Of a stretch of DNA of 64,000 bases, positions 13,852 to 38,770 are shown piece by piece. The translations under genes and the position numbers were made by a program. How positions within the stretch are numbered: position 1 is the stretch's first letter; each line of letters opens with the position of its first letter. Source of the stretch: Paraburkholderia sp. IMGN_8. Its GTDB lineage: Bacteria; Pseudomonadota; Gammaproteobacteria; Burkholderiales; Burkholderiaceae. Under the pieces are notes generated by a model, which was given only the letters and a program-made list of their open reading frames with translations, had not been told where the DNA came from and searched no databases. Where the stretch lies: the NCBI RefSeq assembly GCF_038050405.1, contig NZ_CP150900.1:4340001-4404000 (forward strand). Reading direction: 5' to 3'.

Positions 13852-13980
13852 CGCTGAGCTGCATTCACTAAAAGGCAACATCGCGCTGCAATATCAGCGG
13901 GTCGCCCTCGAAATCAATGCTCTAGCCTTTTCTGGCCTGAACGTGGCATATTGCGACCACATTCATGAGGAGGCCACTTG

Positions 13981-14916: not shown

Positions 14917-14929
14917 ACGTAGTTGTCAG

Positions 14930-14969
14930 GTGCCCGGTGGACCAGCGATTTTCTGGCTCCGCCGGGTAC
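14930..14969. terminator. hairpin between convergent H-NS-like and glycine-zipper genes
   Basis: A roughly 12-bp stem with G-U pairs (14930-14941 and 14958-14969) lies between two converging genes and could serve both. It is repeated in diverged form at 18734-18771 as part of a duplicated block. Confidence 0.5.
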
Positions 14970-14986
14970 ACCAAGCCGACGACGTT

Positions 14987-15235: not shown

Positions 15236-15288
15236 TCGAAGGCACTCTGAGGTTGGATTTTTCCGATGTGGCGCCTTCCGGCGCCGTT

Positions 15289-16469: not shown

Positions 16470-17270
16470 ATGAATCACTTGAGCCTAACTATCAAGAGAG
16501 GATTGCAGACATCTGCAGTCGTCGTATCGCTTGCGACAGCGTTATCCGGATGTGGGGGAGACAGCGGCGGCGTTGGTACGGTCAATTCGGCAGTCGCTCA
16601 AAACGCAGCCCCCCCGGCGGGCTCTGTCAATCCTCCGGTCGTTCCGCTCAACGCGACGTACCAAGGCAAGACGTACACCCAGTGGGAGGTATCGTTCTGG
16701 CAGTGGGCACTGGCCTTGCCGCTCGGTCCCCTCCCACATCCGTTTAATGACTGCACCAACCGTCCCATCTCGGCGGGACAAACCGGACACGTCTGGTATT
16801 GGTCCGCGCCCGACCTTCCAAATGAGATTTGCAACCAATCTGCGAACATTATTCCTGCAGGGACATCCATCTTTCTATCCACGCTCGATTTGGAGGCCTC
16901 ATCGCTGGACGCCCCTCCCTTCCAGGCCTCCACGGCGGCAGGTCAACTGGCCATTGCCCAGCAGTTCGCGAATTACATCCAGGACTTGTTCGTAAGCATC
17001 GACGATGTCCCGGTCGCCAATGTAACCGCGTACCGGACGACGACCGGCCAGTTCACGTTTACCGCTCCTTCGCCGTGGATTTTTAACACTATCGGCGGAG
17101 ACGGTACGGCCGTAGGTGATGGCTACTTCCTGATGCTGAAGCCGCTACCCGCCGGCTCACACAAGATTCACTACGGCGGCAAGTTCCATATCCCCGCGGG
17201 CGTGTTCGGCCCAGACCCGGTGGACGTCATCAAGGACACTACGCTTCTGATTACGGTTGGGGCGGCTTAG
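16470..17270 (+). CDS. hypothetical lipoprotein
   Basis: A 266-aa protein with a lipoprotein signal: basic N-terminus, hydrophobic stretch VVVSLATALS, then lipobox LSGC at about residue 27. The mature part is aromatic-rich and starts with a segment like YTQWEVSFWQWALALPL, with C and W residues suggesting a stable beta-rich extracytoplasmic domain. GGAGG precedes the start at 16470. I know no function for this family. It stands alone between two long non-coding stretches. Confidence 0.72.
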   Translation: MNHLSLTIKRGLQTSAVVVSLATALSGCGGDSGGVGTVNSAVAQNAAPPAGSVNPPVVPLNATYQGKTYTQWEVSFWQWALALPLGPLPHPFNDCTNRPISAGQTGHVWYWSAPDLPNEICNQSANIIPAGTSIFLSTLDLEASSLDAPPFQASTAAGQLAIAQQFANYIQDLFVSIDDVPVANVTAYRTTTGQFTFTAPSPWIFNTIGGDGTAVGDGYFLMLKPLPAGSHKIHYGGKFHIPAGVFGPDPVDVIKDTTLLITVGAA

Positions 17271-17873
17271 ATAGACAATGTCTACCTACCCAGCCGTAAG
17301 TTGCATTCGGCGTAACGACAACGGGCGGCACTGCGTGGTGCAGCCCGTTGGGTGCAACAAGCATTACCTCTGAGGAGCCCTGAGCTTTCGTCAGTGTGAA
17401 GTGAAACTCCCGAATGCTCTCGACGGAGCATGCGCGGGCGTCCGGCATTCGGAGCGTCCAATGGAAGCGCAGCAACCGAATTGGCTGCGAGCGGTAATCG
17501 AGGAGAAGCGCAGTGGCAGTCATTCGCCTCGGTGCCTGACAAAGACATGCTCTCGGTTGCCAAGGTTGAAGACCAAACACCAGAGCTGGGAGCGCCTTCC
17601 GAGGCTGAAGACATCGTCGGCGACTAGGGTACAGGCTACTGGCGGAGAAGGTTGTTTCAGCCATTGAACCGATTTGCGATGCTAGGAGCCCGCTATAGAT
17701 TGCCTAGAGTGCGCAGAGCGCGTTTGCGGGACTCACGAATTGCAAAATGTATTTTGAAGGAGAAGCCAGCGAGCGGTCGGGCTGTCCGCTGACTCCGGAT
17801 AGGCGATGCTTGTTCTAGGCCATTCCGCTGAAGCACTCGACTGCCCATCGATATTGCCAAGGCGACGGTGCAG
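17271..17873. other. 603-base intergenic stretch
   Basis: Convergent spacer between the lipoprotein gene and the minus-strand gene at 17874. Short frames on both strands overlap one another and none has a ribosome site or family motif. Nothing else seen. Confidence 0.35.
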
Positions 17874-18548
17874 CTAGCGACTGAGGTACTCGGAGGAACC
17901 ACAGGCCCAGCCCAGGTGCAGCGTGACCCTACCGACCTTCTTCGCGCTATGTACGTGATTCAACTCGGCATCGATGCCAAACAAGGCAGCAAATGCCCTA
18001 TAGTCATCGAACCAGGCGTGCGTTTGGCTGAATGAGTGGACGAGCATCAGCGCATGGGAAGCGTTAAAACGCTCAGCCTCGAGGATTGCCGAGGCGGTCC
18101 TGTGTAGCAGTTGATACCGTATCGACGGAGGTACTTCGCGCAAGCCGAGGGTCTCAGTGAGGAATTGAAGGCGGACATGCTTTCCTGGAGTACGGGGCTC
18201 GAGCCACTCTGCCACCGTGCGGTCAAACGGTTCGGCGACCTTGCCCTCGATTGCGATGGAGACCAGTTCTTCGTCCCGCCTGCCCAGCACCCAGACGTCG
18301 TTCTGCGACTTCGTGCTGCCTCCAGGAAGCGCGACCTGGTGCTCTGGGATGCCGAGTAGCATTGTAGTGCCACGAAGAGCATCACAAGTACCCAAGGCCT
18401 CCAAGACTTCCTTTGGAAATCCTTCGGCATCCTGCCAGCAGTGGGCAAGGCTTCGGGCCGAATATCCTGTTCTCCAATGCTTCGTTGGCTCGGCGAGGAA
18501 TTGTGCCCAATTGTCGGCAGCTGAAGCCGGTATGTAGATTTTGCCCAT
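17874..18548 (-). CDS. hypothetical protein with PD-(D/E)xK-like nuclease motif
   Basis: A 224-aa soluble protein. The N-terminal WRTGYSARSLAHCWQDA and the central block NDVWVLGRR ... SIAIEGKVAEPF recall the DUF6946-type family. The block has the order Asp - spacer - hydrophobic strand - E-x-K expected of a PD-(D/E)xK nuclease core (N-D near residue 84, E-G-K near residue 100). It may therefore be a DNase related to restriction or repair, which is inference. ATG 18548 is chosen because the conserved start MGKIYIPAS lies there; a longer frame starts at 18569. Confidence 0.6.
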   Translation of the reverse strand: MGKIYIPASAADNWAQFLAEPTKHWRTGYSARSLAHCWQDAEGFPKEVLEALGTCDALRGTTMLLGIPEHQVALPGGSTKSQNDVWVLGRRDEELVSIAIEGKVAEPFDRTVAEWLEPRTPGKHVRLQFLTETLGLREVPPSIRYQLLHRTASAILEAERFNASHALMLVHSFSQTHAWFDDYRAFAALFGIDAELNHVHSAKKVGRVTLHLGWACGSSEYLSR

Positions 18549-18733
18549 CGCAATTCCTTCCGAATCCAATTCGCGTCAGGGAGCGGCGCGCCTCCCCTCC
18601 GGGCGAGTCACGTGCAGGAAGCCCTCGGCATTTCGGCCAAAGGGGGAAATCAATCTATTCTTTGAACCGCGTAAAGAATGGCCTTATCCAAGTCGGTGCG
18701 GGCTGTGTATCCACCACACCAGGTTTCTCACAG

Positions 18734-18790: not shown

Positions 18791-19027
18791 TTATTTTGCC
18801 TGTGCTGCCTCGTGCTGGGCAGCCTGCTCCTCGGCGTGTTTCTTCGCCACGTGTCTTCCCACCAAGCAGCCGCCAACTGCCCCCGCGACCGCGTGGTGCC
18901 CAGCGTAGTGGCCCGCGACACCGCCCACGACCGCGCCTTTGAGACAGCCAGCGGCGCTCGCTCTTCCTATTGTTGCCACGGCTACAGTACCGGTCAACAA
19001 GACGATTTCTATCGGATTAGCTTTCAT
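18791..19027 (-). CDS. exported glycine-zipper protein, copy 2
   Basis: A 78-aa paralogue of the protein at 14987-15235. The mature N-terminal stretch CLKGAVVGGVAGHYAGHHAV is identical, while signal peptide and tail have diverged (KHAEEQAAQHEAAQAK). Start MKANPIEIVLL at 19027. The sequence upstream matches the region upstream of copy 1, including a decayed PXPV gene, so the two loci share a duplicated block. Confidence 0.72.
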   Translation of the reverse strand: MKANPIEIVLLTGTVAVATIGRASAAGCLKGAVVGGVAGHYAGHHAVAGAVGGCLVGRHVAKKHAEEQAAQHEAAQAK

Positions 19028-19075
19028 TTGAAGGTGCTCTGAGTTGTATTTTGGGGTCGTCGCGGCTTCCGGCAT

Positions 19076-19185
19076 TGTTTCAATACCCCCCAACGGCGAC
19101 GTCCGCGCTCACGACGCTTGCGCCATTCGCGAGTCCGCCAGTCGTCGCAGTTGCCGTAGGCGACGGTCACGGGCGTAGGCGGTCA
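19076..19185 (-). pseudogene. relic of a PXPV/WRE-repeat gene
   Basis: Bases 19076-19185 align with the 3' part of the gene at 15289-15600, sharing the GCGCCATTCGCG and GCCAGTCGTC segments and the following stretch, but most of the repeat tail and the signal peptide are gone. No usable frame is left. Confidence 0.6.
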
Positions 19186-19309: not shown

Positions 19310-19573
19310 CTAAGCGAACGGGTTATCGACAGTACCGGTCGGAGCCGGCGGCTCGTCGGCGATGTGTTCCGGCAACGACGGGTCCGCCTGCAGCACATCG
19401 ACGACGCTTCCGATGGCCTGCTGCAGCGCGAGTGCTGTCTTCAGTCCAACCCTGTCGCGGGTGAGTTCCAGTGTGCCCGATATGACAATACGTACCAGGT
19501 CGTTGGTTACTGTCAACGCGTCACCGTCAATGTTCAGGACGTCCGTGTCATTCGCAAATGCCTTAAACACCAC
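19310..19573 (-). CDS. small hypothetical protein, last gene of motor-nuclease operon
   Basis: An 87-aa acidic protein with no signal peptide or membrane helix. Its start overlaps the end of the endonuclease gene by 11 bases, so translation is probably coupled. Its Asp-rich composition could suit an immunity or inhibitor protein for the basic nuclease next to it, but this is speculation. No family recognised. Confidence 0.55.
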   Translation of the reverse strand: MVFKAFANDTDVLNIDGDALTVTNDLVRIVISGTLELTRDRVGLKTALALQQAIGSVVDVLQADPSLPEHIADEPPAPTGTVDNPFA

Positions 19574-20318
19574 TCAGCCCTCCGATTCGCTTGTCCTTCA
19601 TGGACTCCGGGATGCCGGGGAAGCGCAGACCGCTCGCGGCTTCGAGTTCGTGCACGCTCTTCACGTCGTACCGATTCGTGGCTTCGTTATTAGCCACGAT
19701 GGCAAACGCGAGTTGCTGCGACGGAATGTATACGACTTTGAACAGCTGAGTGGGTACGAAGACGCCTGTTGCGCCGATAGTTTTCAGCTGACGGCCGGTG
19801 AACATCGGGCCGGTCACAACATATGTGTCACCAGCACTGACCGCCATACGGCGAACCGCCTCCTCAATATGAGCCCACAAATGACGGTTATTCGTCGGAT
19901 TCTGTGGGACCATGTTTGCGAGCGTGAACGATTCCGCCATGGCTTCGTCGTTCCACCGGTCGCCCGCGGGGCTCATATGCCCGCGGTCGAAGCCGCTCTT
20001 TCGGTAGTCGGCGAGCGTCGCACCGTCGCCTTCCGGCAGAGCGGTCTCCTCATAAAACTTGTTTGTACGGAGTTCGCCTCTCGCGGCGCCCATATGAGCG
20101 CGCGTCAAGTGTTCGGCTGACCAGAGCGGCCCGTGCGTGACGCCGGAGTGAAGGACTGTGAAATCCGAGTAACACAACACCTTGGTCTTTGTCGCCAACT
20201 TTGCATTCGCGAGGACGGGAGGCTGTCCGTTCGGACTGAACTGAGGACATGCCGGGCCAGCGGAAGCATGCGTTGCCACTGCGGCTAGCAGAGCAGCTAA
20301 GAGTTTTTTCATTCGCAT
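19563..20318 (-). CDS. secreted DNA/RNA non-specific endonuclease (NucA/NUC1 family)
   Basis: A 251-aa protein with a Sec signal peptide (MKKLLAALLAAVATHASA) and a betabeta-alpha-metal nuclease domain. The hallmark DRGHMSPAGD (about residue 115) holds the general-base His, and NMVPQNPTNNRHLWAHIE (about residue 137) holds the metal-binding Asn and helix Glu. The family cuts DNA and RNA without sequence preference, normally outside the cytoplasm. It is the fifth gene of a six-gene operon with a MotA-like channel, so a secreted nuclease appears to be part of the system. The gap to the gene upstream is 36 bases. Confidence 0.88.
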   Translation of the reverse strand: MRMKKLLAALLAAVATHASAGPACPQFSPNGQPPVLANAKLATKTKVLCYSDFTVLHSGVTHGPLWSAEHLTRAHMGAARGELRTNKFYEETALPEGDGATLADYRKSGFDRGHMSPAGDRWNDEAMAESFTLANMVPQNPTNNRHLWAHIEEAVRRMAVSAGDTYVVTGPMFTGRQLKTIGATGVFVPTQLFKVVYIPSQQLAFAIVANNEATNRYDVKSVHELEAASGLRFPGIPESMKDKRIGGLSGV

Positions 20319-20354
20319 TGTGAATACGCAGGTTAGTACACCGCCCGCATCTCT

Positions 20355-21449
20355 TCAGCTTCGAAGCTCGAGCTTGTAGAAGAAGTTCTCGATGGCATAG
20401 CGGTGTCGATTGAATGAGTCAAGGTCCCTGACGCGATTTTTCAGGTACACGTAGTGACGGCACTCTTTGGCCTTGCTCAGGCGGTCAATGCCTTGCATCG
20501 CCGCACTAAATTCGGCCAAAGATAACGGCTTGGGCATGGTCAGCTTGTCCACGTCAGGCAAGGCGGCCGCGTCCGTTTGGCGCGTGTCAGGCCACGCCGG
20601 GGTGATAAGCAGCCCCTCGGGCAAAATCTCGATGGTAAAAAGGAACTCGACCTTCCCGGTTTGCTCGTTTGCCCAGCACGGCGGGTAGTCGCGCCCGCCG
20701 CGCGCATCCAGCCGCGCCTTCAAGAAGGCGACCTGTCCACGCAAATCAGCGTTTTCCTTTTTTAGAGTTCCTGGCATTAGCGGGTTCTGCCCTGTTTCTC
20801 GCTCAAGCTTGCTCGCCGCGACGAGTTGCTTGGCTAGCTGAGCTTCCTGCCCTGGGATGTACCTTTCGTTGAGTTGTTCGCGTAACTGCTGCTGAATCTG
20901 GCCTTTCAAGGTGACGCCGGCGAGCGCTTCTGTCATGACATCTCGCGGGACCGAGGGGCGCGTGGGGCCGCTCGCCGGTTGCCCCGATTCGTCCTCCGCC
21001 TTCAGCTGCTTCTTCAGTTTGGCCTTGAGCGCCAGCGCATCAGTGACTTCCTTTTGAATCGTGTCGCTCGCCCCGGTGCCTGCGCGCGCCGCATCGAGCG
21101 TATTCTTTACCTCTGTCAGGGCGCTGAGCTGCGCATCGAGGTCGTCGACGCGTTTTTTGAGCGCATCGCGTTCTTGCACAAGCTTCGACTGCGAAACGAG
21201 CGACGAAATGATGTCATCGGGCTTCGCTCCCCTTTCTGACAACGTTTTTGCTAGTTGTGCGCGGGCCGTCTCCAGCAGCTCGCGTTCGGCTGTGACGTTG
21301 CCGGCCGCGAGCAGCGCTTGCTCGAACTGCCGCGCACGTTCGTCAGCCTGAAAGAGCATCCATCCCAGCAGCAGAAGCAGCAAGAATGTCAGCGTGAACG
21401 CAATCTCAGTCAGGGAGAGCTGGAAAATCTGGTCATTGGCTCGCTGCAC
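20355..21449 (-). CDS. ZorB/MotB-like partner: one N-terminal membrane helix, coiled coil, C-terminal domain
   Basis: A 364-aa protein. Residues 12-33 form one membrane helix (LSLTEIAFTLTFLLLLLLGW) with a Glu at residue 15, near where MotB, ExbD and ZorB carry their proton-binding Asp. Residues 35-240 are largely coiled coil with Gln/Lys/Glu heptads. The last 110 residues form a compact domain (PPCWANEQTGKVEFLF, then CRHYVYLKNRV and ENFFYKLELR). This tail is not a classical OmpA peptidoglycan-binding domain. It starts 15 bases after the MotA-like gene, the same order as zorA-zorB. Most likely the stator-type partner of that channel; the assignment rests on topology and gene order. Confidence 0.7.
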   Translation of the reverse strand: MQRANDQIFQLSLTEIAFTLTFLLLLLLGWMLFQADERARQFEQALLAAGNVTAERELLETARAQLAKTLSERGAKPDDIISSLVSQSKLVQERDALKKRVDDLDAQLSALTEVKNTLDAARAGTGASDTIQKEVTDALALKAKLKKQLKAEDESGQPASGPTRPSVPRDVMTEALAGVTLKGQIQQQLREQLNERYIPGQEAQLAKQLVAASKLERETGQNPLMPGTLKKENADLRGQVAFLKARLDARGGRDYPPCWANEQTGKVEFLFTIEILPEGLLITPAWPDTRQTDAAALPDVDKLTMPKPLSLAEFSAAMQGIDRLSKAKECRHYVYLKNRVRDLDSFNRHRYAIENFFYKLELRS

Positions 21450-21464
21450 ATCGGACTCCTTTCC

Positions 21465-23186
21465 CTAGAGTTCCGCGCGCGGGAGTTCGTTGACCGGCGG
21501 ATGAGTGGTCGGTGGGTGCTCCGAATTCCATGCGGGGACTTGAAGGGCCGACCCGTTGCCATGCTGGAGGACATGACTACCATCAAGCCCAGAAGGCGTG
21601 AGCGGGGCCGGCACTTTCCCGTTCGAGGAATTCGCGGGGAACGCCGAGCGGTCGCGAGTGTAACTGTGTAACTCGCGCACCAAAGTGGCCAAGTGCTCCG
21701 TCATCGCGTGAACGGCCTCCTTCATCCCCGGCAGTTCATGCATCGCTGCATGGAGTCGCTGTGCCGTGTGTTGCGTTGTAGCGTGAGTTTGCTCGGCCGT
21801 TACTTGGGCGTCCACCACGCGTTGCGAAAGCGCGAGCACACCGTGGGAGCATTGGTTGACAGCGGCCGCAACATCGCCAAGGGTACTAGTAAGTCCTTGC
21901 AACTCTCGGGTCGCTTGGCCTAGCGCCGCCGATTGTCCGGCAGCTTCGGCGGATACCGATGTTAGGGTCTTCTGCTGTGTTGCAATGTCCGCAACTGTAG
22001 TTTTGACTGCCTCACTGAGCGACTGAAATGTCGGCATGACATTCGCCAGACCTGCGGCCTGCGCCGTGAGAGCCTGTGCGGCGGCCGTCAGCGCTTCCCG
22101 TTGCGAAAGCACGTTATCGCTAAGTCTGCCCAAGCCATCTTGAGTAGCCCGCAGCGTCCCGTTGAGAACGCTCAGGGTATCGAGTTGTGCTTGCGAGCCG
22201 ACGAGTAGAGCGTCTTGGCTGGCGGCGAGTTGAATAACACGCTCCAGCATGGCGTCGACGTCGCCGCTACGCGAGCGCATTGCTGCCGCTGCAGTCCGCA
22301 ACGAGTCGACGGATTGATGCACTTCCCCCGCCGCCGTGCGAACTGTTGTCGCAATGTCGTGCGTGCTCTGGCTGAGCTGCGCCATCGGTTCACTGAGTTT
22401 GCTCGAGAAGTAGTCGTCTGGAAATGTGGTTTGCTCGAGTCGCCGGGTCACCTCGTCAGCGAACTGAATAACCCTGGCCTCGACACTCTGGAGATTTTGC
22501 TTCATCCCGTTCGAGTAGCCGTCAACGGAGTGCGATAGCCTTCGACTGGCCTCCTTCACTTCGTTGAGAGATGAGCTGAAGGCTTTCGTGTTCTCAGCAG
22601 CCAGTCGCTGGAAGAACTCGGTCAATTTCTGCCCGTAAGACTTGGTCAACTCCTCAACGCCGACGCTCACTTTGGCGACGGACTGGTTCGTGGCGTCATC
22701 CACTTGCGTTTGAAGGTCTCGGAGATTATCAAGAACCATCGTGAGTTGCTCGCGCAGCCGGTGTGACGCATCAATGAGTCCTTCCTCGGCCGATTTAACC
22801 GCGTCGTCAAGGTCCTCGCGAAAGCTTACCCAGTACACCCGGACCATCAGACCGAATACAGTGCTAACCATCGCTGCGCCAAATCGCACCGCGATGAGCG
22901 ACATCTTGGTGCCGATGCTGGGCAGGTCAAGAAGGCAAAAAATAATCGACGTAATCGTGAAAATGAAGCCGAGGTAGTAGCAACTATCCGCAAACTTCTC
23001 ATCGGAGACGCTCTTATCAAGCCGTTTGCTGCCAATCAGGATGTACACGGCCATAACGGTCAGCGGAATGGTAAAGCCGAACAACCAGGGGTCGTTGATG
23101 GCCCAGCCGATGCCAGAGGAGGTCACCTTCAATAGAAGCGTGACAACGAAGAGCTTCTGGACGGGTACGGACAAAATCTTGCGCAT
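21465..23186 (-). CDS. MotA/TolQ/ExbB-like (ZorA-like) channel protein with long coiled-coil tail
   Basis: A 573-aa protein. Four membrane helices fall in the first 121 residues (about 10-29, 34-53, 69-87, 97-121). The last one, RFGAAMVSTVFGLMVRVYW, has the small-residue A-x-x-S-T-x-x-G-L pattern of the conserved MotA/ExbB/TolQ helix. Residues 125 to about 520 are a long cytoplasmic coiled coil rich in Ala, Gln, Ser and Thr, then a disordered Pro/Ser tail. This plan (short channel domain plus very long tail) is that of ZorA, not of flagellar MotA. ATG 23186 follows AGGGGTGA and lies 4 bases after the preceding stop. It probably forms an ion-driven motor with the next gene product. Confidence 0.78.
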   Translation of the reverse strand: MRKILSVPVQKLFVVTLLLKVTSSGIGWAINDPWLFGFTIPLTVMAVYILIGSKRLDKSVSDEKFADSCYYLGFIFTITSIIFCLLDLPSIGTKMSLIAVRFGAAMVSTVFGLMVRVYWVSFREDLDDAVKSAEEGLIDASHRLREQLTMVLDNLRDLQTQVDDATNQSVAKVSVGVEELTKSYGQKLTEFFQRLAAENTKAFSSSLNEVKEASRRLSHSVDGYSNGMKQNLQSVEARVIQFADEVTRRLEQTTFPDDYFSSKLSEPMAQLSQSTHDIATTVRTAAGEVHQSVDSLRTAAAAMRSRSGDVDAMLERVIQLAASQDALLVGSQAQLDTLSVLNGTLRATQDGLGRLSDNVLSQREALTAAAQALTAQAAGLANVMPTFQSLSEAVKTTVADIATQQKTLTSVSAEAAGQSAALGQATRELQGLTSTLGDVAAAVNQCSHGVLALSQRVVDAQVTAEQTHATTQHTAQRLHAAMHELPGMKEAVHAMTEHLATLVRELHSYTRDRSAFPANSSNGKVPAPLTPSGLDGSHVLQHGNGSALQVPAWNSEHPPTTHPPVNELPRAEL

Positions 23187-23190
23187 GGCT

Positions 23191-23994
23191 TCACCCCTCG
23201 AGCGGTCTGACTGCCACAATGTGCGCGCCGCCAGCAGCAAAGTAGTCCTCCCAGAATTTCAGGTTCCGGCGAGTTTGTAGCTTCGGCGTGTTGAGAAGGT
23301 ACTCAATCTCTACCTCGACCCCTGAGAGGTCAGCAGTCACTTTCCGGCCGTAGTCGGAGTCGTGAAACCGGTTGAAATCGAAGTTGCCACGGTACATCGA
23401 ATATTCGGGCGTGTTGTGCAGCATGTCGGAGACGATGAAGAGGCGGTGCGGACCCGTTACATTTTGCTTTCGGAAACCATTGATGGCGGTCATCTCGAGC
23501 ATCTCGAATATCGGCGAAAACCTCGACGACTTTTTCGCCTCGAGTTCGTCCGCAAGCCGCAACATCGGTTCGCGGAAGCCCTGTTCGAACCGCTTTTTGA
23601 GATGTGAAAGGTTGGCATTCATCTCGCTTTTGCCGGTTCCGTCGCCCGGATTGCATTCCTCGAACACGGGCCGCGCTGTGGCGGTGTAGTCATTGTCGAG
23701 GACGAACACGGACAGTAGGTATCCGACCGGGATGCGCTGCGTTATCAATTGCTCTAGAAACGCTTGAAACGCTTGCTTTTGCGTAAAGTTCAGCGGGTCG
23801 GTCTTGTCGACGAGCAAGACAAATTGCCCCCCCGGTCCGCTAACCGGGCACATACGCTGGTCTAACTCCGTTGTGCGGGTGAGGCGCATGTAGAAAATGG
23901 CAGTGCCGAGAATCGCGAGGGAGAAGAACATGATGACCGTTCCCCATACCACGTGACGCGTTCGACGTCGGGCGGCTGCTCGGCTACTCCTCAT
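23191..23994 (-). CDS. membrane-anchored VWA-like protein
   Basis: A 267-aa protein with one membrane helix at residues 15-36 (VWGTVIMFFSLAILGTAIF). It then has a Rossmann-like domain beginning QFVLLVDKTDPLNFTQKQ, where DKTD sits at the place of the MIDAS DxSxS, and a later strand HRLFIVSDMLHN that resembles a VWA strand and loop. The motif is not canonical, so metal binding is uncertain. Basic N-terminus RSSRAAARRRTR suggests N-in topology, placing the domain in the periplasm. The gene overlaps the upstream coiled-coil gene by 4 bases (ATGA), so the two are translationally coupled. Confidence 0.6.
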   Translation of the reverse strand: MRSSRAAARRRTRHVVWGTVIMFFSLAILGTAIFYMRLTRTTELDQRMCPVSGPGGQFVLLVDKTDPLNFTQKQAFQAFLEQLITQRIPVGYLLSVFVLDNDYTATARPVFEECNPGDGTGKSEMNANLSHLKKRFEQGFREPMLRLADELEAKKSSRFSPIFEMLEMTAINGFRKQNVTGPHRLFIVSDMLHNTPEYSMYRGNFDFNRFHDSDYGRKVTADLSGVEVEIEYLLNTPKLQTRRNLKFWEDYFAAGGAHIVAVRPLEG

Positions 23995-25454
23995 GCTGCC
24001 ACCGCTTTGAGTGAACGCGAATTGGCGCGGGGCGGAAGGTGGTCCTCAAGGGCAGTAAGCGTGTCAAACTCTTGATTGAAGGACGACTGAATCGCAGCGC
24101 GCAGCGTCTGAACCTTCTCGAGCAGCGTTTGTACGCGCGCTTGTTGTGCCTCGAAGGCTGCTCGGTTTTCTTCGAGTTTGAAGTTTGGCCACTCGACTTC
24201 CACTAACGTCGGCATCACCGAAAAGCTCGCAGGCGGAGGGGTCCCTTTTCTATGCATCACGTTTTCGGTGCGGAACAATGTGATGAGCGCTTGGTGGCAC
24301 CGTTGAGCGTTAAGCATCGCGCTCTGAAGGCGCGATAGTGTCTTTGTCTTAATCCCGAGCGACGCCTCCTGCCGCACGAGAAACGCTTGCGCGGCTTTGA
24401 TGTTTTCGTCGACCAGTTCCAGCGCCTCGTCCTTGAGTGCCGCCAGTTCATCGCGCACGTCCGAAATTTCTTCCTGGTAAGCATCGTGAGCCTCGTCCGC
24501 TTCCCGCGAATGCCGTCCGTACCCCGGATAGGTGTCGTCGAAAAGGACGCCGTCAGCGAGCGCGGCAGTGGCGAAGAGCATGCTGAGGCCAAAGAGAAGC
24601 CAAGACGTAATGTCGTCAAACCCGAAAGGAGTATGTTTAAGGGTCTCCAACGCGATTTTTCCCGGGGCGTCGATGTCGGCGACCAAGGCGGCACGATAGT
24701 GCGCGATGGTGAGGCTGACGCTTGTCATCGTGACAAACGCGGCAATCAAACCGAGGCTCCCCAATACTTTACGAAGCCGACTACGATGAAAGAGATTGGG
24801 CAGGAAAAACCGCCCGAGGCTGGCAGCGAGCGCCACGTTGACCAGCGCAAGCCCCGCCGCGTACACGAATCCGCTTATCAGCCCCCCCTCCAAGCCTGTC
24901 GCAAAGAGCGCCGAATTTACGCCGCCCTCCACCACGATGAGCAGGACGAGGACGGCAATCCGAAGGAACGTCCCGGCACTCTGCGGATAGCGGGCACTGC
25001 GCACCAATCGATTCTGCTGCCTGAATTCATCCAGCGCCGTATCGCATCGAGCGACCTCTTCCTTGAGTTCGCGCAAAACGGCGCTTCGTTCGGATAAGAG
25101 CGCGTTTGCCTTACGTGCGAATTCCTCGGCGGCCTGTGCCGCGTGGTTCACGACCGTCGTGACGTCCAATCGCGACAGGTCTCCATTGACAACAGCGAGT
25201 CTGCTGGCGGCCCAATCGAGGTAGCTTGCCCGAGCCTTATCGATGCGCTGAACAATCTGTGCCTCGATGCCGGCCGGAATGGTGGAATCGGGGGCGGGCT
25301 GCCCTGCTTCTCCCAAGCGTTTCGCTTCTTCGCGCAGTTGGAGTTCTTCCGCGATATCAGCTTCGTTGGGTTCGGGAGGGAACTCCGGCGAACGTGTCTC
25401 CTGTCGTCGCGACGGCGAAAAAAACCACGCGATACACCGCTGCCACAGGCCCAT
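23991..25454 (-). CDS. membrane protein with coiled coils on both sides of four helices, first gene of motor-nuclease operon
   Basis: A 487-aa protein of unrecognised family. Residues 30-150 are charged and helical, likely coiled coil. Four membrane helices follow, about 162-183, 190-215, 230-252 and 281-302. Residues 315-470 are again coiled coil (EISDVRDELAALKDEALEL and EAQQARVQTLLEKVQTL). It opens an operon of six genes with overlaps or gaps of at most 36 bases; its promoter should lie in the AT-rich 25455-25560 stretch. Its plan suggests an inner-membrane scaffold or sensor for the motor complex, which is inference. Confidence 0.62.
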   Translation of the reverse strand: MGLWQRCIAWFFSPSRRQETRSPEFPPEPNEADIAEELQLREEAKRLGEAGQPAPDSTIPAGIEAQIVQRIDKARASYLDWAASRLAVVNGDLSRLDVTTVVNHAAQAAEEFARKANALLSERSAVLRELKEEVARCDTALDEFRQQNRLVRSARYPQSAGTFLRIAVLVLLIVVEGGVNSALFATGLEGGLISGFVYAAGLALVNVALAASLGRFFLPNLFHRSRLRKVLGSLGLIAAFVTMTSVSLTIAHYRAALVADIDAPGKIALETLKHTPFGFDDITSWLLFGLSMLFATAALADGVLFDDTYPGYGRHSREADEAHDAYQEEISDVRDELAALKDEALELVDENIKAAQAFLVRQEASLGIKTKTLSRLQSAMLNAQRCHQALITLFRTENVMHRKGTPPPASFSVMPTLVEVEWPNFKLEENRAAFEAQQARVQTLLEKVQTLRAAIQSSFNQEFDTLTALEDHLPPRANSRSLKAVAA

Positions 25455-27277: not shown

Positions 27278-27724
27278 GGTGAACGGGGGCTGCGCCGACA
27301 GCCATATCTGCGACCGCAGCCATTGGGAAAGCACTAGCCGACCACTGGTGCAGACCGATACGCGAAACCGAATTCCGTCCCTCGTCTTCTCTGAAAAAGG
27401 ACGGGTGGCTCGACTTCGAATCTATGATGAAGTTATCTGGTCAGTCTGGTTGAGACCGAGAACCGCGTCGCCGGATGGACGGCAACGGATATTTTGAACA
27501 CTTTTCCCGACGCGTCGAAATAGCGTCAAACTGTCTCAAGCGCGGCCGCCGGCCTCGACTTGCAATGCCAAAAATGCACATGCCAAGAGTCGCTCAAAGC
27601 ATTGATTCTCGAAACGTGGCAGCGAAAATAAAATGGCAGTTCCATTTCGCGAGACCGCCCGATTCTGCAACAATATACGTCGTGTTCAGTGAGAAAACCA
27701 GCGCTGATAAAAAGGGCACAGCCA
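27278..27724. other. 447-base region upstream of the kinase-helicase gene
   Basis: No gene or strong repeat seen. It should carry the promoter of the kinase-helicase/PLD operon; composition becomes AT-richer toward 27620-27720. Confidence 0.35.
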
Positions 27725-30700
27725 ATGAGCGGCGACACTTCAAACGGGATGAGATTTCGGTCAACAATAACCCTTGCGGGCACCGGTCCCAGGTTTTTGT
27801 CGAATGGACGGTATGTAATCAAGGGCGCGCCACGCCGTGGCGGACTAGCCTCGGTATTCAAGGCATACGATACCCAGTCCGAGTCTCATGTCGCCGTTAA
27901 GATTTTCAGGGCAGACCCGACAGACGAGGTGGTCGAGGAGTCATTTCGGCGGGAGACGCAGGCTCTGCGGGACCTCCGACATCCCAACATCGTGAATATT
28001 TTCGACTCTGGTATCGATGACGAGACCGGTGAACATTTTATCGCGATGGAATGGGTAGAGAACGAACTCTCGTCTGTCTTGGACAGGAAGCGCTACGACG
28101 AGTGGGGAGACTATTTCGCAGCCATCGGGCGACCAGTATTAGAAGCTCTTGCCTTTGCCCACACCCGCGCAACAGCACATCGCGACATTAAGCCGTCGAA
28201 TATCTTAATACATCTCGACGGAACGGTTCGGGTTTGCGACTTTGGGATTTCGAAGATAAGGGATTTTCTTGAGCCAGGCATCACCTTGGCTCAGTACGCT
28301 TCAATGCCTTTTGCCCCACCCGAACTCGACGATGGCTCATTTACATACAGCCGCGACGTTTTCGGCTTCGCAGCCTTGAGCGTTTTCTCTCTATGCACTG
28401 CGCCTTGCTCCACTCACGCCGCATTAGTCGCTGCTGCAGACACGATTAGTGTCCCGGAGCCTGTTCGAGTGCTGTTGAAGCGCTGCCTCGCGCTGGAAAA
28501 TCCGGCAGAACGGCCTTCCGACGCCGCAAGTCTTCTGATTGAGTTCAGCAGACTGGAGCCACGGCGCGTGGAGGAGAAGCTGGGAACTGTGTTGATTAGT
28601 TTGACGAAGAAGGTCAATTCCGTCATCGAGTTCGACCTAGGTCTGCGGAGTGATGCAGAGTGTGTTCGTTTCATCGAATCAGACCTCACGAATGCGAGCT
28701 GCGGACGTCAGCCGGCGATAGCCGGTACTGAGGGTCGGTCTGCAGCATCAGGGAAGGGTGCATTGAGACTCATCGGAGAGAAATATCGTTATATCGCAGC
28801 GATATCTGATAATGAGCAAAAACTAGTGCTGACGGCTGCTGTAGGCATGACGGCATTCCAAAGCGAGAAGTATCGAGAAGAAACATTGCAGTGTCCTTTC
28901 CGGTTGGTCGCGGCAGACGCTGCTGCTCATCTTTCTGAGCGCAACATCGTTACACTCATCGAGACGCTCGATGAGTTCGATGCTGAACAGAAGGTTGTTC
29001 TTTTGCAGCAAAGAAAGCACCGTATGTACAAGACGTGGCTTGACCTTCTTTCCGCGAAGACAGAGCTTGAACGCATGCGCGAGCGCCGCATCTACTATTC
29101 GGGCGTCGAGCTTCTTTCCGCGTTTGTACTCCAATTTGACTTGTCTTCGACGCTGGCTGACCAGGGGCTCGAAGAAGCTGACGTAAAAATTGTCCTTCCA
29201 GAATCGGGAGACTTCTTCGGCCAGATTGTGTCGGTGGCTCAAGACACGTTGGTGGTACGAATCAGCGACAGAAACAAGGTTGCGCCTGATGAACTTCCCG
29301 AACACGGCCACTTGGTCGTTGACACTGCGAAAGCCGACGCGGCTCTTGACAAGCAGAAAACCGCGTTAGACGCAGTGCGTTATGGCAGAGCTGTCAACTC
29401 ATCTCTCGGCGACTATATCGTTGAACCCGAAACTGTGCCTGCATGCGTTCCAGTCGATGTCGACTTCATCCAACCGGAAATCGACGACGATAAGAAGGAC
29501 GCGATTCGGATTGCTCTCGCCGAGCCGGCCTTGATGGTGATTCAAGGACCACCCGGGACCGGTAAGACCACGCTCATTTCTGAGATGGTCCTCCAGACGT
29601 TGCGTCGACAGCCGACCGCACGGATTCTTTTGACTTCGCAAACGCACGTCGCGCTGGATAACTCGTTAGAGCGAATTTCAAAACTGAGTGAGGACTCCGT
29701 TAGAGCGGTCCGAATAGGTCACGACGACGATGACAGAATATCCGAGTCTGCTAAGCGTCTGCTGATTGACCGAAAGATGCCAGCGATGCGACGAAGTGCT
29801 ATAGCCGCAGGAAAGCAGTTCATTGAGAATTGGGCCGCGACCCGCCAGTTACGCTTGGAGGACATCCGGCTCGCTATGGCGTTGGAGCGACGTGCCGGCT
29901 TCCTTGAGCGCCATGAAGTAGTCATACATCGTCTTAGCGACCTTCAGTCAGCGCTTTCTGAAGACAAGCGACGCACATTGGAGCCGGACGAACTGGTCGA
30001 GATTGAGCAGGAGGTGTCTAGCCTGCTGGCTGAGGAGCGTGCCTTGACTAAGGACGTTCAAGAGACCCTGTCCGCGATTCGCCAGCTTGAATCCGACGCA
30101 AGCGCCGTGTCGCATCTTTCAAAGTGCGCCGCAAAGGAACTCCGCGAGTGGGCGGATGCATACGCAAATCCCGGGGACCAAGCGACGGCTCAACTCCGCA
30201 AACTGCTCGCCGCGCATGCCGACTGGGAGAGTAGATTTGGACGAGCTCCAGAATTTCGGGCAGCAGTGATTTCCGCATCCCAAGTTGTTGCCGGAACATG
30301 CCTCGGCGTCATGGCAATACCTGGACGGAATGAAATTGTATATGACCTCTGTATCGTCGATGAGGCGTCGATTGCTACACCCACCGAGGTTTTAGTTCCA
30401 ATGGCTCGAGCGCGCCGAACCATCTTGGTTGGCGACAAAAAGCAGCTATCACCGTTTCAAGACCCCGAGCTGAGTGCCAAAGGTCTGCTTGAGAAATACA
30501 AGCTCACGCCCGAAGACCAAAAGGCCACTCTCTTCGACCACTTGAGCAACGGTTTGACCGAGGGTCTGCGCAAAGTGCTGGCGACGCAACATCGTATGGT
30601 CCCGGCAATCGGGAACATGATTTCAGCGTGCTTCTACGATGACGGACTGCAAAGTGGTCGAAAGGATGCGCCCAGTTATCTTGCAGCGGCGATGCGTCGC

Positions 30701-31219
30701 CCGGTCACGTGGTTTACGACCAGCAAGTTTCAAAATCGGGCATCTCACACCGTCGGGTCATCTCACTACAATGAGCTCGAGATTCAGATTATCGTAAAGC
30801 TGTTGGCGAGGTTTGATTTCTCAATCTCGAAAGGTTCGGACAAGAAAAAGAGCATCTCTGTGGCTGTGCTTACCGGATACGGTGAGCAGAAACGTAGACT
30901 TCGCACGGCGATTGAGCGTCGCAAGAAGGAATGGTCCAGCTTCTCCGAGATTTACGTCAATGTCGTCGACGCGTTTCAGGGGCGGGAGGCCGACGTGGTT
31001 ATATTCTCGGTGACGCGCTCTGAAGCGAACGGTTTAGGCTTTTTGAAAGACCTCGAGCGAATCAATGTCGCCCTGTCGCGTGGCAAAGACTACGTCGCGA
31101 TAGTCGGCGACGACGCTTTCTGTCGAGGCGCCGATGCTCGTAGAAATCCCTTGAAAGCTGTTCTCGAACATATGAGCGCGCATCCCCAGGACTGCGTGGT
31201 CGAAGAGGCAACAAAGTGA
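27725..31219 (+). CDS. protein kinase fused to SF1 (UPF1/COG1112-type) helicase, Mokosh MkoA-like
   Basis: A 1164-aa fusion. Residues about 25-270 are a Ser/Thr protein kinase: Gly loop GAPRRGGLASVFKA, Lys in VAVKIF, catalytic loop HRDIKPSNIL and metal-binding DFG in VCDFGISK. From about residue 570 an SF1 helicase follows: Walker A GPPGTGKTTL (near 607), Walker B DEAS (near 879), QLSPF, and C-terminal motifs VVDAFQGREADVV and NVALSRGKDY. A coiled coil interrupts the helicase near 735-800. ATG 27725 begins the kinase neatly; an upstream in-frame codon at 27689 is possible. It is coupled by a 4-base overlap to a PLD-fold gene. This pair matches the reported layout of the type I Mokosh anti-phage system. 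Confidence 0.85.
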   Translation: MSGDTSNGMRFRSTITLAGTGPRFLSNGRYVIKGAPRRGGLASVFKAYDTQSESHVAVKIFRADPTDEVVEESFRRETQALRDLRHPNIVNIFDSGIDDETGEHFIAMEWVENELSSVLDRKRYDEWGDYFAAIGRPVLEALAFAHTRATAHRDIKPSNILIHLDGTVRVCDFGISKIRDFLEPGITLAQYASMPFAPPELDDGSFTYSRDVFGFAALSVFSLCTAPCSTHAALVAAADTISVPEPVRVLLKRCLALENPAERPSDAASLLIEFSRLEPRRVEEKLGTVLISLTKKVNSVIEFDLGLRSDAECVRFIESDLTNASCGRQPAIAGTEGRSAASGKGALRLIGEKYRYIAAISDNEQKLVLTAAVGMTAFQSEKYREETLQCPFRLVAADAAAHLSERNIVTLIETLDEFDAEQKVVLLQQRKHRMYKTWLDLLSAKTELERMRERRIYYSGVELLSAFVLQFDLSSTLADQGLEEADVKIVLPESGDFFGQIVSVAQDTLVVRISDRNKVAPDELPEHGHLVVDTAKADAALDKQKTALDAVRYGRAVNSSLGDYIVEPETVPACVPVDVDFIQPEIDDDKKDAIRIALAEPALMVIQGPPGTGKTTLISEMVLQTLRRQPTARILLTSQTHVALDNSLERISKLSEDSVRAVRIGHDDDDRISESAKRLLIDRKMPAMRRSAIAAGKQFIENWAATRQLRLEDIRLAMALERRAGFLERHEVVIHRLSDLQSALSEDKRRTLEPDELVEIEQEVSSLLAEERALTKDVQETLSAIRQLESDASAVSHLSKCAAKELREWADAYANPGDQATAQLRKLLAAHADWESRFGRAPEFRAAVISASQVVAGTCLGVMAIPGRNEIVYDLCIVDEASIATPTEVLVPMARARRTILVGDKKQLSPFQDPELSAKGLLEKYKLTPEDQKATLFDHLSNGLTEGLRKVLATQHRMVPAIGNMISACFYDDGLQSGRKDAPSYLAAAMRRPVTWFTTSKFQNRASHTVGSSHYNELEIQIIVKLLARFDFSISKGSDKKKSISVAVLTGYGEQKRRLRTAIERRKKEWSSFSEIYVNVVDAFQGREADVVIFSVTRSEANGLGFLKDLERINVALSRGKDYVAIVGDDAFCRGADARRNPLKAVLEHMSAHPQDCVVEEATK

Positions 31220-32706
31220 AAAAGCTTGAGGACATTCTTCAATCGGCTGCTTATGCGCGGCCGGGATACGTGCTGGCGACCTTCAAGGAAGCCGCAGCAC
31301 CAGTGTTTAGGCTCAATGCTCGCGTCTTGACGCTTGCCAAGAAGCCGCTCAATCCCATCGAAGAGGGTTATCTGCGAGCCATCTCTGCCGGGCTGACAAA
31401 CACCGCCGAGATTTCACAGTTTTTAGGACTGCCCTCGCAGCTCCTGACCGGAACGCTGGCAGCCTTGAACGCCAAGGAATACGTTCAGTATTCAAGGGCG
31501 ACATCCTCCGTGTCGGCGTCCGTTTCACTCACGTTCAAGGGACGCATCGCACTTGCAGAGCTGATATCCATCGTTCCCGAAGAGCGGATGGTGCGATTGG
31601 CATACGACCCGGTCCTTAAAAAAGTGATATTTGCGCCTACGTCGTCACTTTGGAAGCCGGCTGAGATTCGTGAATCTGGAAGATTAGAGTTACCTCTTTG
31701 TGGAGCCAGAAAACCCGAAGCTTCTGAAGTATCTCTGAGCGAAGTAGACAAAATCCTTAAGCGCTTTCCACGTCGTGACGAAGCTGTCCCTAATCTGCTG
31801 GGTATTCAGCGTATCGAGCGAGCGGAACTCAACTTCATTCCGTGCCTCGCGCTTTACTACCGAGCTGTTTCGGGCAATGACGTTCAAGTTGCGTTTGTGT
31901 TCGAGGATAGATTCGACGGCAGCAGCGATTTTTTCGACGAGGGCTACGAGTTAGCATTCAGTCGTCTGGGAGGGCCGGAGCTTATTGGCTCGCGGCATGT
32001 ATCCGAATCAGCGCAGGTTGAAAATCTCTCCGCACTGTTCCCAGACACAGACTCCGCGGCGCAGATGGCCAAACTCGCCGAGCTAGAGCAGGAAATCGCC
32101 TCTTCGCAAGAGCATGAGGCGACACCACCAGAGGCGCCGATTGATTTCAAGGTTGACAAAGCGACGAGGGCGCAGTCGCGGCTTCGCGACTTGACGCAAC
32201 GATTCATCCGATGCCATGAGCACCCTAAAATGCTTGAGAAGGCGCTATCTGAAACCTCGGAGCGTCTACTTATCATTTCTCCATGGGTTAGGGCTCAAGT
32301 AGTGGACAAGTCGTTCAGAGAGTCACTGGAAAGGCTGCTCAAAAAGGGAGTCAAGGTACATATAGGATATGGGCTGGCGGAGGACGACGGAAACAAAAAG
32401 CCGAAGGACGCGGCACGCGGGAAGGTGCCAATTTCTGACTCGACAAGGCGAGATTTCGAAAGGCTGGCCAAGGCTTACGCAAACTTCAAGGTGTACTTCG
32501 TCGGAAACACACATCGAAAGCATCTTGTGTCGGACCAGCGCTTTGCGATTGTTTCCAGTTTCAACTGGCTCTCGTTCAAGGGAAGTCCCGATGACCGCGC
32601 GCGCGATGAACTTGGTTTTATGGTGACTGAGCCGGAACACGTCGAGAAACTGTTTCTAGATGGAATCGAACTTCTTCAGCAAGGTTACGACCATCCGGCA
32701 CAGTAG
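31216..32706 (+). CDS. phospholipase D-fold protein, Mokosh MkoB-like
   Basis: A 496-aa protein with GTG start overlapping the stop of the kinase-helicase gene (GTGA). Residues 45-105 look like a winged-helix region (EEGYLRAISAGLTNTAEISQ). The C-terminal third is a PLD-type domain with one HxKx4D motif (HRKHLVSD near residue 433) and the following strand IVSSFNWLSFKG. A single HKD is normal for dimeric PLD nucleases. No signal peptide is seen, so it should act in the cytoplasm, probably cutting nucleic acid with the helicase partner. Confidence 0.8.
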   Translation: MKKLEDILQSAAYARPGYVLATFKEAAAPVFRLNARVLTLAKKPLNPIEEGYLRAISAGLTNTAEISQFLGLPSQLLTGTLAALNAKEYVQYSRATSSVSASVSLTFKGRIALAELISIVPEERMVRLAYDPVLKKVIFAPTSSLWKPAEIRESGRLELPLCGARKPEASEVSLSEVDKILKRFPRRDEAVPNLLGIQRIERAELNFIPCLALYYRAVSGNDVQVAFVFEDRFDGSSDFFDEGYELAFSRLGGPELIGSRHVSESAQVENLSALFPDTDSAAQMAKLAELEQEIASSQEHEATPPEAPIDFKVDKATRAQSRLRDLTQRFIRCHEHPKMLEKALSETSERLLIISPWVRAQVVDKSFRESLERLLKKGVKVHIGYGLAEDDGNKKPKDAARGKVPISDSTRRDFERLAKAYANFKVYFVGNTHRKHLVSDQRFAIVSSFNWLSFKGSPDDRARDELGFMVTEPEHVEKLFLDGIELLQQGYDHPAQ

Positions 32707-35800: not shown

Positions 35801-37141
35801 TCAGACGGCTCCCACGTGGACGCACGCCTCGTCGTCGACATCTTCACGCAGGTGGTCCAGATAGTCCGCCCATTGCTGCATCATCTGTCGCCTGACGGCA
35901 AGAAATCTCGTGCGGTTATAGGCGTCCCCCAACGAGTCAGGCACGCGGTGGGCCAACTGATGCTCAATCACTTCCGGTGCGAAGCCCAGACCTTCGTGCA
36001 GGATGGTCCGCGCCATCGCCCTGAAACCATGGCCCGTGTGCTCGTCGCGGGTGCTGTAACCTGCACGACGCAGGGCAGCGTTCACCGTGCCGCCAGACAT
36101 CGGCTGGTTCCTGTCCGCCACCCCGGGGAAGACGTACTCCTGTCGGCCGGTGAGCGGATGCAACTCACGCAGGATGGCGATGACCTGCGTTGCCAGCGGA
36201 ACCAGGTGCAGGACAGACGAACTGGCAGTGGCAGCATCCTCTCGCCTCTTTTCCGGAACGTAATTCCACTCCGCCATCTCCAGGTCGACGTCCTCCCAGC
36301 GCATCGTCCGCAATTCACCTGGCCGACAAAAGACATACGGAGCAATCCTCAGGGCGCATTTGACCGCGAAGGTTGCACTGACCGCATCCATCGCGCGGAG
36401 CAGAGGTCCGACATCCGCCGGGTCAGTGACGGCGGCAAAGTGACCGGGCGTGGCGGGTGCCAACGCGCCGCCCAGGTAGACGGTGGGGTTGTGTTGCGCC
36501 CGTCCGCAGGCGACGGCGTAGTTGAACACCTGAGAGCAGTTCTGCTTCGCCCGGTGCGCGGTGTCGTTGGCGCCTCGGTCCTCGATGCGTCGAAGACACG
36601 CCAGCACTTCGGGCGCAGTGATGTCCGCGATAGGGCGGTTGCCCAGCCACGGGAAAATGTCGTTCTGCAGGCGCGCAATGATTTTGTCGCGGTGCGACTT
36701 TGCCTTCCTCGACATCATCCGCTCGAACCACTCGCGAGCGACGGCCTCAAAGGTGTTGGCAGCACTCACCAGCCTCGCGGCCTTGATGGCTTTTCTCTGC
36801 GCGCTCGGGTCAATGTGGTCGTCCAGCAGTTCGCGCGCCGTGTCGCGCTTTTTGCGGGCCTTTTCCAACATGGTTGTCGGGTATTGGCCTAACGAAATTC
36901 GTTTCTCTTTCCCGTCGAACCGATACTTCAGTCGCCAGAGCTTCGAACCTCCGGGAGTCACTTCCAGATAGAGGCCCTTGGTGTCGTAAAGGCGATAGAC
37001 CTTGTTGCGCGGCTTGGCGTTTTTGATGGCAAGGTCTGTGAGCAGACTGCGAGCGCCGCGCTCTACTGCAACCGGAGGTTGAACAGGGAACAGCGCCACG
37101 ACATTTGTCGAGCGCACAAAGGTGTCATGCAGGGTTTGCAT
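35801..37141 (-). CDS. tyrosine recombinase/integrase (P4-like), first copy
   Basis: A 446-aa P4-type integrase. Residues 30-110 are the DUF4102-type arm-binding domain (LTDLAIKNAKPR, YDTKGLYLEVTPGGSKLW). The core-binding domain follows, then the catalytic domain with Arg in FCRPGELRTMRW, His-x-x-Arg in GHGFRAMARTIL, and the terminal region EVIEHQLAHRV ending with the Tyr in GDAYNRTRF. The start at 37141 has GGAGATAG upstream and opens with MQTL, like the AlpA gene. It is clearly related to the integrase at 37346-38530. Confidence 0.9.
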   Translation of the reverse strand: MQTLHDTFVRSTNVVALFPVQPPVAVERGARSLLTDLAIKNAKPRNKVYRLYDTKGLYLEVTPGGSKLWRLKYRFDGKEKRISLGQYPTTMLEKARKKRDTARELLDDHIDPSAQRKAIKAARLVSAANTFEAVAREWFERMMSRKAKSHRDKIIARLQNDIFPWLGNRPIADITAPEVLACLRRIEDRGANDTAHRAKQNCSQVFNYAVACGRAQHNPTVYLGGALAPATPGHFAAVTDPADVGPLLRAMDAVSATFAVKCALRIAPYVFCRPGELRTMRWEDVDLEMAEWNYVPEKRREDAATASSSVLHLVPLATQVIAILRELHPLTGRQEYVFPGVADRNQPMSGGTVNAALRRAGYSTRDEHTGHGFRAMARTILHEGLGFAPEVIEHQLAHRVPDSLGDAYNRTRFLAVRRQMMQQWADYLDHLREDVDDEACVHVGAV

Positions 37142-37261
37142 GTGACTATCTCCATGTAACGCAAACAGCCCCTGGAGATATGTCCTCAATCCACGAAATG
37201 CTCGTGGAAATACAGCCTCAATTTTTCCTGGAAGCTGCGGGAGCAGGGCTTACCGGCAGCT
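37135..37261. repeat. imperfect ~125-bp repeat, copy B
   Basis: Diverged copy of 35656-35776, placed the same way across the start codon of the downstream gene. It ends GGGCTTACCGGCAGCT. It may be a shared regulatory region or a trace of stacked element insertions. Confidence 0.65.

Positions 37262-38694: not shown

Positions 38695-38770
<76 letters not shown>

Follow-up and report, generated by a model that had tools for sequence, protein, structure and literature searches.

A recurring bacterial four-gene set with a MotA/ExbB-family channel, a tethered VWA protein and neighboring nucleases of two families: a candidate motor-driven defence system

We analyze a window of 64,000 nucleotides from Paraburkholderia sp. 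IMGN_8 (contig NZ_CP150900.1, positions 4,340,001 to 4,404,000), in which six open reading frames (ORFs) on the minus strand, here called A to F, occupy positions 25454-19310. A first-pass annotation, made from the sequence alone, had described them as a six-gene membrane motor operon related to, but distinct from, the Zorya defence system. The six ORFs and their spacing are confirmed: the junctions, in order from A to F, are a 4-nt overlap, gaps of 4, 15 and 36 nt, and an 11-nt overlap. The unit itself has to be redrawn, as the set that recurs in other genomes is A-B-C-D, with E exchanged for a nuclease of the SNase family in eight loci and non-adjacent in twelve. These four genes encode a predicted membrane complex built around a MotA/TolQ/ExbB-type channel subunit (C) and a one-helix partner (D). 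Coordinates are given in Table 1.

Recurrence and distribution of the four-gene core

The comparison set comprised 23 loci (labeled L; genomes are labeled G): the window, 18 loci reached through the alignment of D in named genomes, and four further loci that were fetched. Two near pairs on the tree of A (L004/L030 and L007/L009) mean that these are not 23 independent cases. Directly from the gene order, A, B, C and D stand together on one strand and in the same order in 21 of the 23 loci; C and D are present in all 23 (D by design of the search), and A and B in 21. The expectation that the six genes would co-occur elsewhere is thus borne out for A to D, and E and F are not constant members.

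The two exceptions are L014, which has C and D alone, and L003. The C-D pair of L014 (L014:8483-10681) is followed downstream by a gene (10720-11385) for a 221-aa protein without a Pfam match. The copy of C in L003 may be broken or interrupted, because it has no membrane part (L003:1-1498, the end of L096; the contig stops ~380 bases before C), an ORF at the contig end resembles a transposase by eye, and G019, probably the same genome as L003, contains no match to A. Frame damage is also seen in L016, where A is split across two frames, and in L019, where D is split and the start of B is apparently out of frame.

The hosts are Burkholderiales and other Betaproteobacteria, one Pseudomonas, one Pasteurellaceae and one Nitrospirota metagenome-assembled genome, and L017 sits on a record labeled as a plasmid. 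Credible matches to D were obtained in 2 of 398 genomes drawn as a sample from the phylum and in 3 of 399 drawn as a sample from the order, and A was found in 2 of 196 relatives, the genome of the window being included in each count; in the phylum sample, two of five D matches were accepted, and the other three (E 2.2e-4 to 2.8e-4) were taken as coiled-coil matches. The A-D core is rare, and its distribution is very patchy. In a protein database, 428 relatives of D were found at E ≤ 0.001, and among the best 120 of these that were listed, the closest (96% and 82%) are from Paraburkholderia. A homologue search from the alignment of A, which scores only the candidates sharing most words, returned 10 proteins. 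A phage, viral-contig or plasmid reservoir of the operon was considered and rejected, as no D match was found in such sequences; the five partial plasmid records found by blastn with the operon all cover the E-F end of the query. In the literature searched, outside which most subscription papers lie, we recognized no description of an A-B-C-D gene set.

Table 1. Features of the window discussed in the text (positions are those of the window)
Feature	Position	Strand	Description
Gene A	23991..25454	-	487 aa; ~four transmembrane helices (residues ~156-305); core gene
Gene B	23191..23994	-	267 aa; N-terminal transmembrane anchor and predicted VWA domain; core gene
Gene C	21465..23186	-	573 aa; MotA/TolQ/ExbB-type channel subunit; core gene
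Gene D	20355..21449	-	364 aa, GTG start; one transmembrane helix, stalk, periplasmic domain; core gene
Gene E	19563..20318	-	251 aa; Endonuclease_NS, DRGH; accessory
Gene F	19310..19573	-	87 aa, GTG start; not part of core
Mokosh type I pair	27689..32706	+	MkoA 27689-31219, MkoB 31216-32706; context, outside the system
Tyrosine integrase (Arm-DNA-bind_3)	35801..37189	-	1.5 kb from tRNA-Ala
tRNA-Ala(CGC)	38695..38770		

For C we took the ATG start, which matches the starts of its relatives in the alignment and has a GAGGGG-type ribosome site; a TTG at 23240, giving a 591-aa frame, is also possible. Scans for promoters and terminators gave no clear excess over shuffled sequences, and the tRNA was the sole Rfam match in window positions 14000-40000. 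No family in Pfam or NCBIfam was matched above its curated cut-off by A, B, D or F. Among PADLOC 2.0.0 models at E ≤ 1, none matched A, B, E or F, and D gave weak matches to LmuB coils only.

A predicted motor complex with a tethered VWA protein

By hydropathy, C has four transmembrane (TM) segments, A about four, and B and D one each near the N-terminus. In C, the four hydrophobic segments are followed by a tail of ~450 aa that is probably a coiled coil. C is probably a channel protein of the MotA/ExbB family: 16 of 22 C family members match the Pfam MotA_ExbB model at E ≤ 0.1 (best 7e-6), with the window's own copy at 20.1 bits, below the curated cut-off of 22.9; the best of 28 profile comparisons aligns the membrane part of C with the ExbB/TolQ-type set of its own genome (E 0.0087, 51 columns); and T77 and T109, invariant in 22 of 22 members, fall on the two pore threonines of ExbB.

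The first-pass annotation had called C ZorA-like with a MotA fold, and of this the channel family is supported, while the likeness to ZorA is loose. Profile comparison of the membrane part with five ZorA sequences gave E 0.11. The ZorA models of PADLOC and NCBIfam find their best stretches within residues 135-521 of the 591-aa frame, which is the tail, essentially behind the membrane part, and the NCBIfam ZorA model NF033914 scores 16.5 bits against a cut-off of 190.

D consists of a TM helix carrying Glu15, a helical stalk, and a periplasmic alpha/beta domain (about residues 256-364) with conserved Cys258 and Cys330. The glutamate to which the first-pass annotation had pointed is kept in 140 of the 141 alignment rows with a letter at this position; only P0104, whose start is misaligned, departs from it. 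Aligned by hhalign to three ZorB sequences, residues 1-50 of D reach a probability of 56%, with Glu15 on the ZorB aspartate, versus 3.9% for the helix of B as a control. Pore-helix comparisons among the known families gave 51% for ZorB-MotB and 42% for ZorB-ExbD, and those of D gave 1.4% with MotB and 0.2% with ExbD. The pore helix of D thus aligns with that of ZorB, and profile comparison of D with MotB and ExbD was otherwise negative. The counterpart of Glu15, ZorB D24, is crucial for Zorya defence (PMC11890865).

Where ZorB has an OmpA domain, the periplasmic domain of D may be TolR/ExbD-like, judging from its predicted structure. Neither OmpA nor ExbD (PF02472) was matched by window D in Pfam at E ≤ 1, in agreement with the proposal that the OmpA domain had been replaced. 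The candidate substitute comes from a weak fold match: Foldseek with the D model returned no match at E ≤ 0.001, and at the top of the fold comparison stand three TolR/ExbD rows, weak and tied. No OmpA fold appears among the 50 rows listed, which does not exclude OmpA.

One reading of these two proteins is that the operon is a Zorya subtype, in which C would be ZorA and D a ZorB without OmpA, while the effectors specific to the subtype would be A, B and the nuclease. Zorya comprises ZorA5B2 with ZorC/D, ZorE or ZorF/G, its effectors are modular (PMC11890865), and ZorC/D and ZorE act with the ZorA tail inside the cell. Both systems have an inner-membrane channel of the MotA/ExbB family with a long tail and a one-helix partner with an acidic residue in its pore helix, and both share modular nuclease effectors and defence neighborhoods; the long tail of C, the alignment of the D helix with ZorB and the modularity of Zorya effectors speak for this reading. 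However, no protein of the A-D operon matches a ZorA or ZorB family above cut-off, ZorA models reach only the tail of C, its channel part is closer to ExbB than to ZorA, and no ZorC, D, E, F or G model is matched by the operon proteins. The periplasmic domain of D is not recognizably OmpA-like, its helix has Glu where ZorB has Asp, the VWA protein B and the four-TM protein A are extra, and the nuclease is apparently secreted here and cytoplasmic in Zorya. At the level of sequence, A-D is Zorya-like in outline and fails the tests against Zorya models, and we regard a Zorya subtype as improbable.

The TolQR/ExbBD systems offer a second comparison. C shares with them the channel TM pair and the pore threonines of the last two TM helices, and D resembles their partner subunit in its single TM helix and in a periplasmic domain of possibly similar fold. 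They differ in that the Pfam ExbD model does not match D, that D has a long stalk and window C a long tail and four hydrophobic segments, and that no transducer of the TolA/TonB type was recognized here.

The remaining core proteins also agree with their first descriptions, A as a four-helix coiled-coil protein and B as a membrane-anchored, VWA-like protein. In A, a block of four TM segments is flanked by two helical arms, which are probably coiled coil. The AlphaFold2 model of B (predicted local distance difference test score 85) matches VWA structures, and by this model B is a membrane-tethered VWA fold. VWA folds are found in proteins such as Ku and Rpn10, and VWA domains follow a metal-ion-dependent adhesion site (MIDAS) rule. 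The motifs of B are MIDAS-like and incomplete (D63-x-T65-x-P67 and D190), accompanied by conserved Cys49 and Cys114. Across the 16 sequences spanning its TM helix (residues 14-39), none of His, Asp and Glu is conserved.

Tethered VWA proteins encoded beside tolQ/tolR-like genes have been reported, with function unknown and gliding suggested (PMC12204202). As in those loci, a gene for a TM-tethered VWA protein here adjoins genes for a TolQ-like channel and a one-helix partner. The differences are that the B helix lacks the conserved His (SHLS) and the pore acidic residue of the published families, that the partner genes are different (A and a stalked D), and that a nuclease and defence neighbors accompany the set here. 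The likeness bears on the chief rival to a defence role, namely a motor-driven envelope machine in which B would be a force transducer for surface translocation, envelope maintenance or uptake, and whose defence neighbors would reflect shared mobility. That B is a tethered VWA protein fits such a machine, and the departure of its helix from both published VWA families does not.

Nucleases beside the core and the small gene F

E matches the Pfam Endonuclease_NS model at 3.5e-44, contains DRGH, the catalytic motif, and has a signal-peptide-like start by hydropathy, consistent with the secreted DRGH nuclease first proposed. The starts of the core-adjacent nucleases resemble signal peptides by eye, and these enzymes would be secreted. 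Searching the loci with SNase and Endonuclease_NS profiles only, in ORFs of at least 60 aa, we observe core-adjacent nucleases in 11 of the 23 loci, of the Endonuclease_NS family in three and of the SNase family in eight. Endonuclease_NS stands after D in the window and L003 and before A in L008; SNase stands after D in L010, L012, L013, L015 and L031, before A in L020, and as partial or broken frames after D in L017 and L019. Pfam confirmed SNase in the six intact cases and Endonuclease_NS in L008.

Chance adjacency of nuclease and core seems unlikely, because the 9.1-Mb genome of the window holds just two Endonuclease_NS genes and no SNase gene. On the tree of A, the nuclease label requires 7 changes (minimum 5), a value as low as which was reached in 8 of 200 shuffles. 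L008, with Endonuclease_NS, falls among SNase loci, and SNase is also carried by L031, the locus farthest from the rest; the tree forks concerned are unstarred or open. Judging from the sequences, the nuclease is probably a frequent, non-obligatory effector of the core.

The small gene F is present in 84 of the 146 relatives searched, and 81 of these belong to its own genus (own genome counted). Nine places that carry F away from A-D were examined, and eight of them have an E-type nuclease beside F (L095, L097, L098, L089-L091, L093 and L094); the ninth, L092, has no E-type nuclease within 1.5 kb of F. Its place as an operon member in the first-pass annotation is therefore lost, and we reject F both as a component of the operon and as an immunity gene dedicated to it, since F is found across the genus without A-D.

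These data also raise an explanation that is compatible with the other readings, and whose probability does not subtract from theirs: in the window, A-D could have landed beside a secreted nuclease pair that is common in the genus and unrelated to the motor. The wide occurrence of F with an E-type nuclease would be expected in that case; one such pair lies away from A-D in the window's own genome (L097, G000:C2:4040317-4041319), and L095 has the window-type E-F without A-D. Against it, one of the two window-type E-F pairs of G019 adjoins C-D (L003 = L096), and eight other loci, among them the most distant one, have SNase beside D or A. We consider an incidental nuclease in the window rather unlikely. 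The E-F pair of L095 lies beside genes that resemble, by eye, those at window 12390-13978. G069 carries an F-associated copy of the E-type nuclease, and we speculate that, in genomes whose core has no nuclease next to it, a copy of this kind may act in trans.

Defence neighborhood and possible role

The Mokosh-like pair noted next to the operon is a complete Mokosh type I pair by PADLOC (MkoA 2.1e-225, MkoB 1.4e-72), ~2.2 kb from gene A on the opposite strand. Beyond it, the integrase near tRNA-Ala suggests a genomic island; the window contains no second copy of the tRNA-Ala 3' end that could serve as an att repeat, which leaves the far end of the island unfixed. As in the window, integrases are found close to the core in L030 and L033.

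To describe the neighborhoods more broadly, we scanned 153 of 160 flanking ORFs of at least 200 aa from 21 loci (the seven left out include the SNases of L010 and L020) and, as a control, 107 of 147 ORFs from 10 of 13 regions elsewhere. At E ≤ 1e-15, PADLOC families numbered 66 from 67 flank ORFs and 73 from the other 86, versus 7 from the 107 control ORFs, each in one ORF (WYL, mad3, PycC, HEase, mad8 and two RT-Protease_XI models). Direct PADLOC scans covered 30 flank proteins from 17 loci, picked as likely matches and not an unbiased sample; 13 matched, in nine loci, and the tested proteins of L003, L004, L006, L010, L013, L016, L019 and L020 gave no match. The matches are PDC-M27 (two proteins, L005), PDC-S28 and an E1-E2 match (L008), PDC-S36/PD-T4-1 (L011), Lamassu LmuB (L012), Hachiman HamB, type I restriction and an LmuB-like match (L015), a STK_OB kinase of the TerY-P set (L031) and a retron-type ATPase-Toprim (L030), along with an ambiguous RtcR (L018) and a weak helicase match (L017). 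Near L005, L008, L011, L012, L015, L030, L031 and in the window, the best defence-protein matches reach E=0. Batch scans added, from proteins outside the 13, mREase_IV (1.7e-94), LmuA (3.9e-39), HamA (8.8e-103), SngB (9.6e-170), TerY (1.4e-127) and PP2C (1.4e-76). Proteins of named defence systems thus lie near several loci, and hallmark proteins of such systems occur on the flank side only and not in the control. That defence genes are commoner in the core flanks than in the control is suggestive.

Several further genes were seen in these neighborhoods. An all-against-all comparison of 20 loci found, besides A-D, two families in at least three loci, SNase and a HIT/HNH pair. The latter, a HIT-domain protein and an HNH endonuclease, neighbors A-D in L010, L011 and L012 (e.g., L011:6396-9035), accompanied in L011 and L012 by a NOV_C protein (PDC-S36/PD-T4-1), and is perhaps another defence unit. 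In L031, the most distant A-B-C-D-SNase locus, positions 14240-17546 hold the gene of the STK_OB-type kinase together with PP2C and TerY-like VWA genes (the latter two by batch match and by eye). In the window, a DUF6946 protein (17874-18569, 5.4e-89) is encoded downstream of F, and two similar small minus-strand ORFs with AAGCLKGAVVGGVAGHYAGHHAV at 14987-15304 and 18791-19093, ~3.5 kb apart, suggest a local duplication.

The reading that we favor, with confidence at about the halfway mark, is that A-D is an undescribed 5:2-motor system whose probable role is defence against DNA entering the cell, often with a periplasmic nuclease as its effector. Some observations weigh against it. Neither an adjacent SNase nor an adjacent Endonuclease_NS is present in 12 of the 23 loci, which speaks against a strict nuclease role. 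Counting families inflates the contrast between flanks and control, as one HamB protein matches 25 models. By protein, the counts are more than 13 of 153 in the flanks versus at most 7 of 107 in the control, a modest contrast and not a measured enrichment. The lack of a constant nuclease and the modest contrast would both suit the envelope machine without a defence role introduced above; its difficulties are the very patchy distribution of the core, the named defence genes near several loci, and the recurrence of two unrelated nuclease families beside the core. On the whole we think such a machine unlikely, though it deserves to be taken seriously.

The same ingredients could instead form a machine for DNA acquisition or processing, in which extracellular DNA is drawn across the envelope by the motor and VWA arm and broken down by the secreted nuclease, either as a nutrient or for uptake. 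In keeping with this idea, the energy-coupled motor of the envelope is accompanied by non-specific nucleases from two families, both apparently secreted. However, no pilus, pore or translocase family recurs among the 20 loci compared, and several loci have defence genes nearby; we judge it very improbable.

For the favored defence system, we infer the stoichiometry, the use of protons, the binding partners and the trigger. Five copies of C would form a channel with a cytoplasmic coiled rod in the inner membrane, and two copies of D would thread the pore, using Glu15 as their proton site and ending in a TolR/ExbD-like periplasmic domain. B, tethered to the membrane with its VWA domain in the periplasm, would be a sensor or force arm, and A would be a four-TM partner touching the rod of C. 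The genes appear to travel as mobile accessory cargo, frequently in the company of defence genes. The target would be DNA arriving through the envelope, as in phage genome ejection and perhaps conjugation or transformation: the periplasmic parts would sense the entry event, ion flow would turn or strain the motor, and the secreted nuclease (Endonuclease_NS here, SNase elsewhere) would then attack the DNA in the periplasm. Both the effector role of the nuclease and defence itself are likewise our inference from the gene set and its surroundings.

Published systems provide partial precedents. Zorya is an example of a 5:2 motor that is able to bring in or switch on a nuclease (PMC11890865). In the SNIPE study (PMC13190303), phage DNA is attacked at the membrane during injection by a single membrane-bound nuclease system, and the abstract names neither a motor nor a VWA protein. 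A bolder proposal, which we advance tentatively and hold to be doubtful as it stands, is that A-D represents a new class of immune machine: a proton-driven 5:2 motor whose VWA sensor recognizes periplasmic DNA or a phage entry apparatus there, and which delivers, licenses or switches on an exchangeable nuclease of the periplasm. Foreign DNA would then be destroyed short of the cytoplasm, and self DNA would be kept safe by its compartment. The new elements would be the periplasmic domain of D, the VWA protein and the periplasmic site of action.

If A-D does serve in defence, it would be a second form of motor-driven immunity, with another periplasmic partner domain and a VWA protein, in which cutting is shifted to the periplasm and compartment alone could tell self from foreign DNA. 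With one nuclease family swapped for another beside a constant core, the effector role of the nuclease can be tested directly. Should the role lie outside defence, A and D are still uncharacterized families tied to an apparent energized envelope complex.

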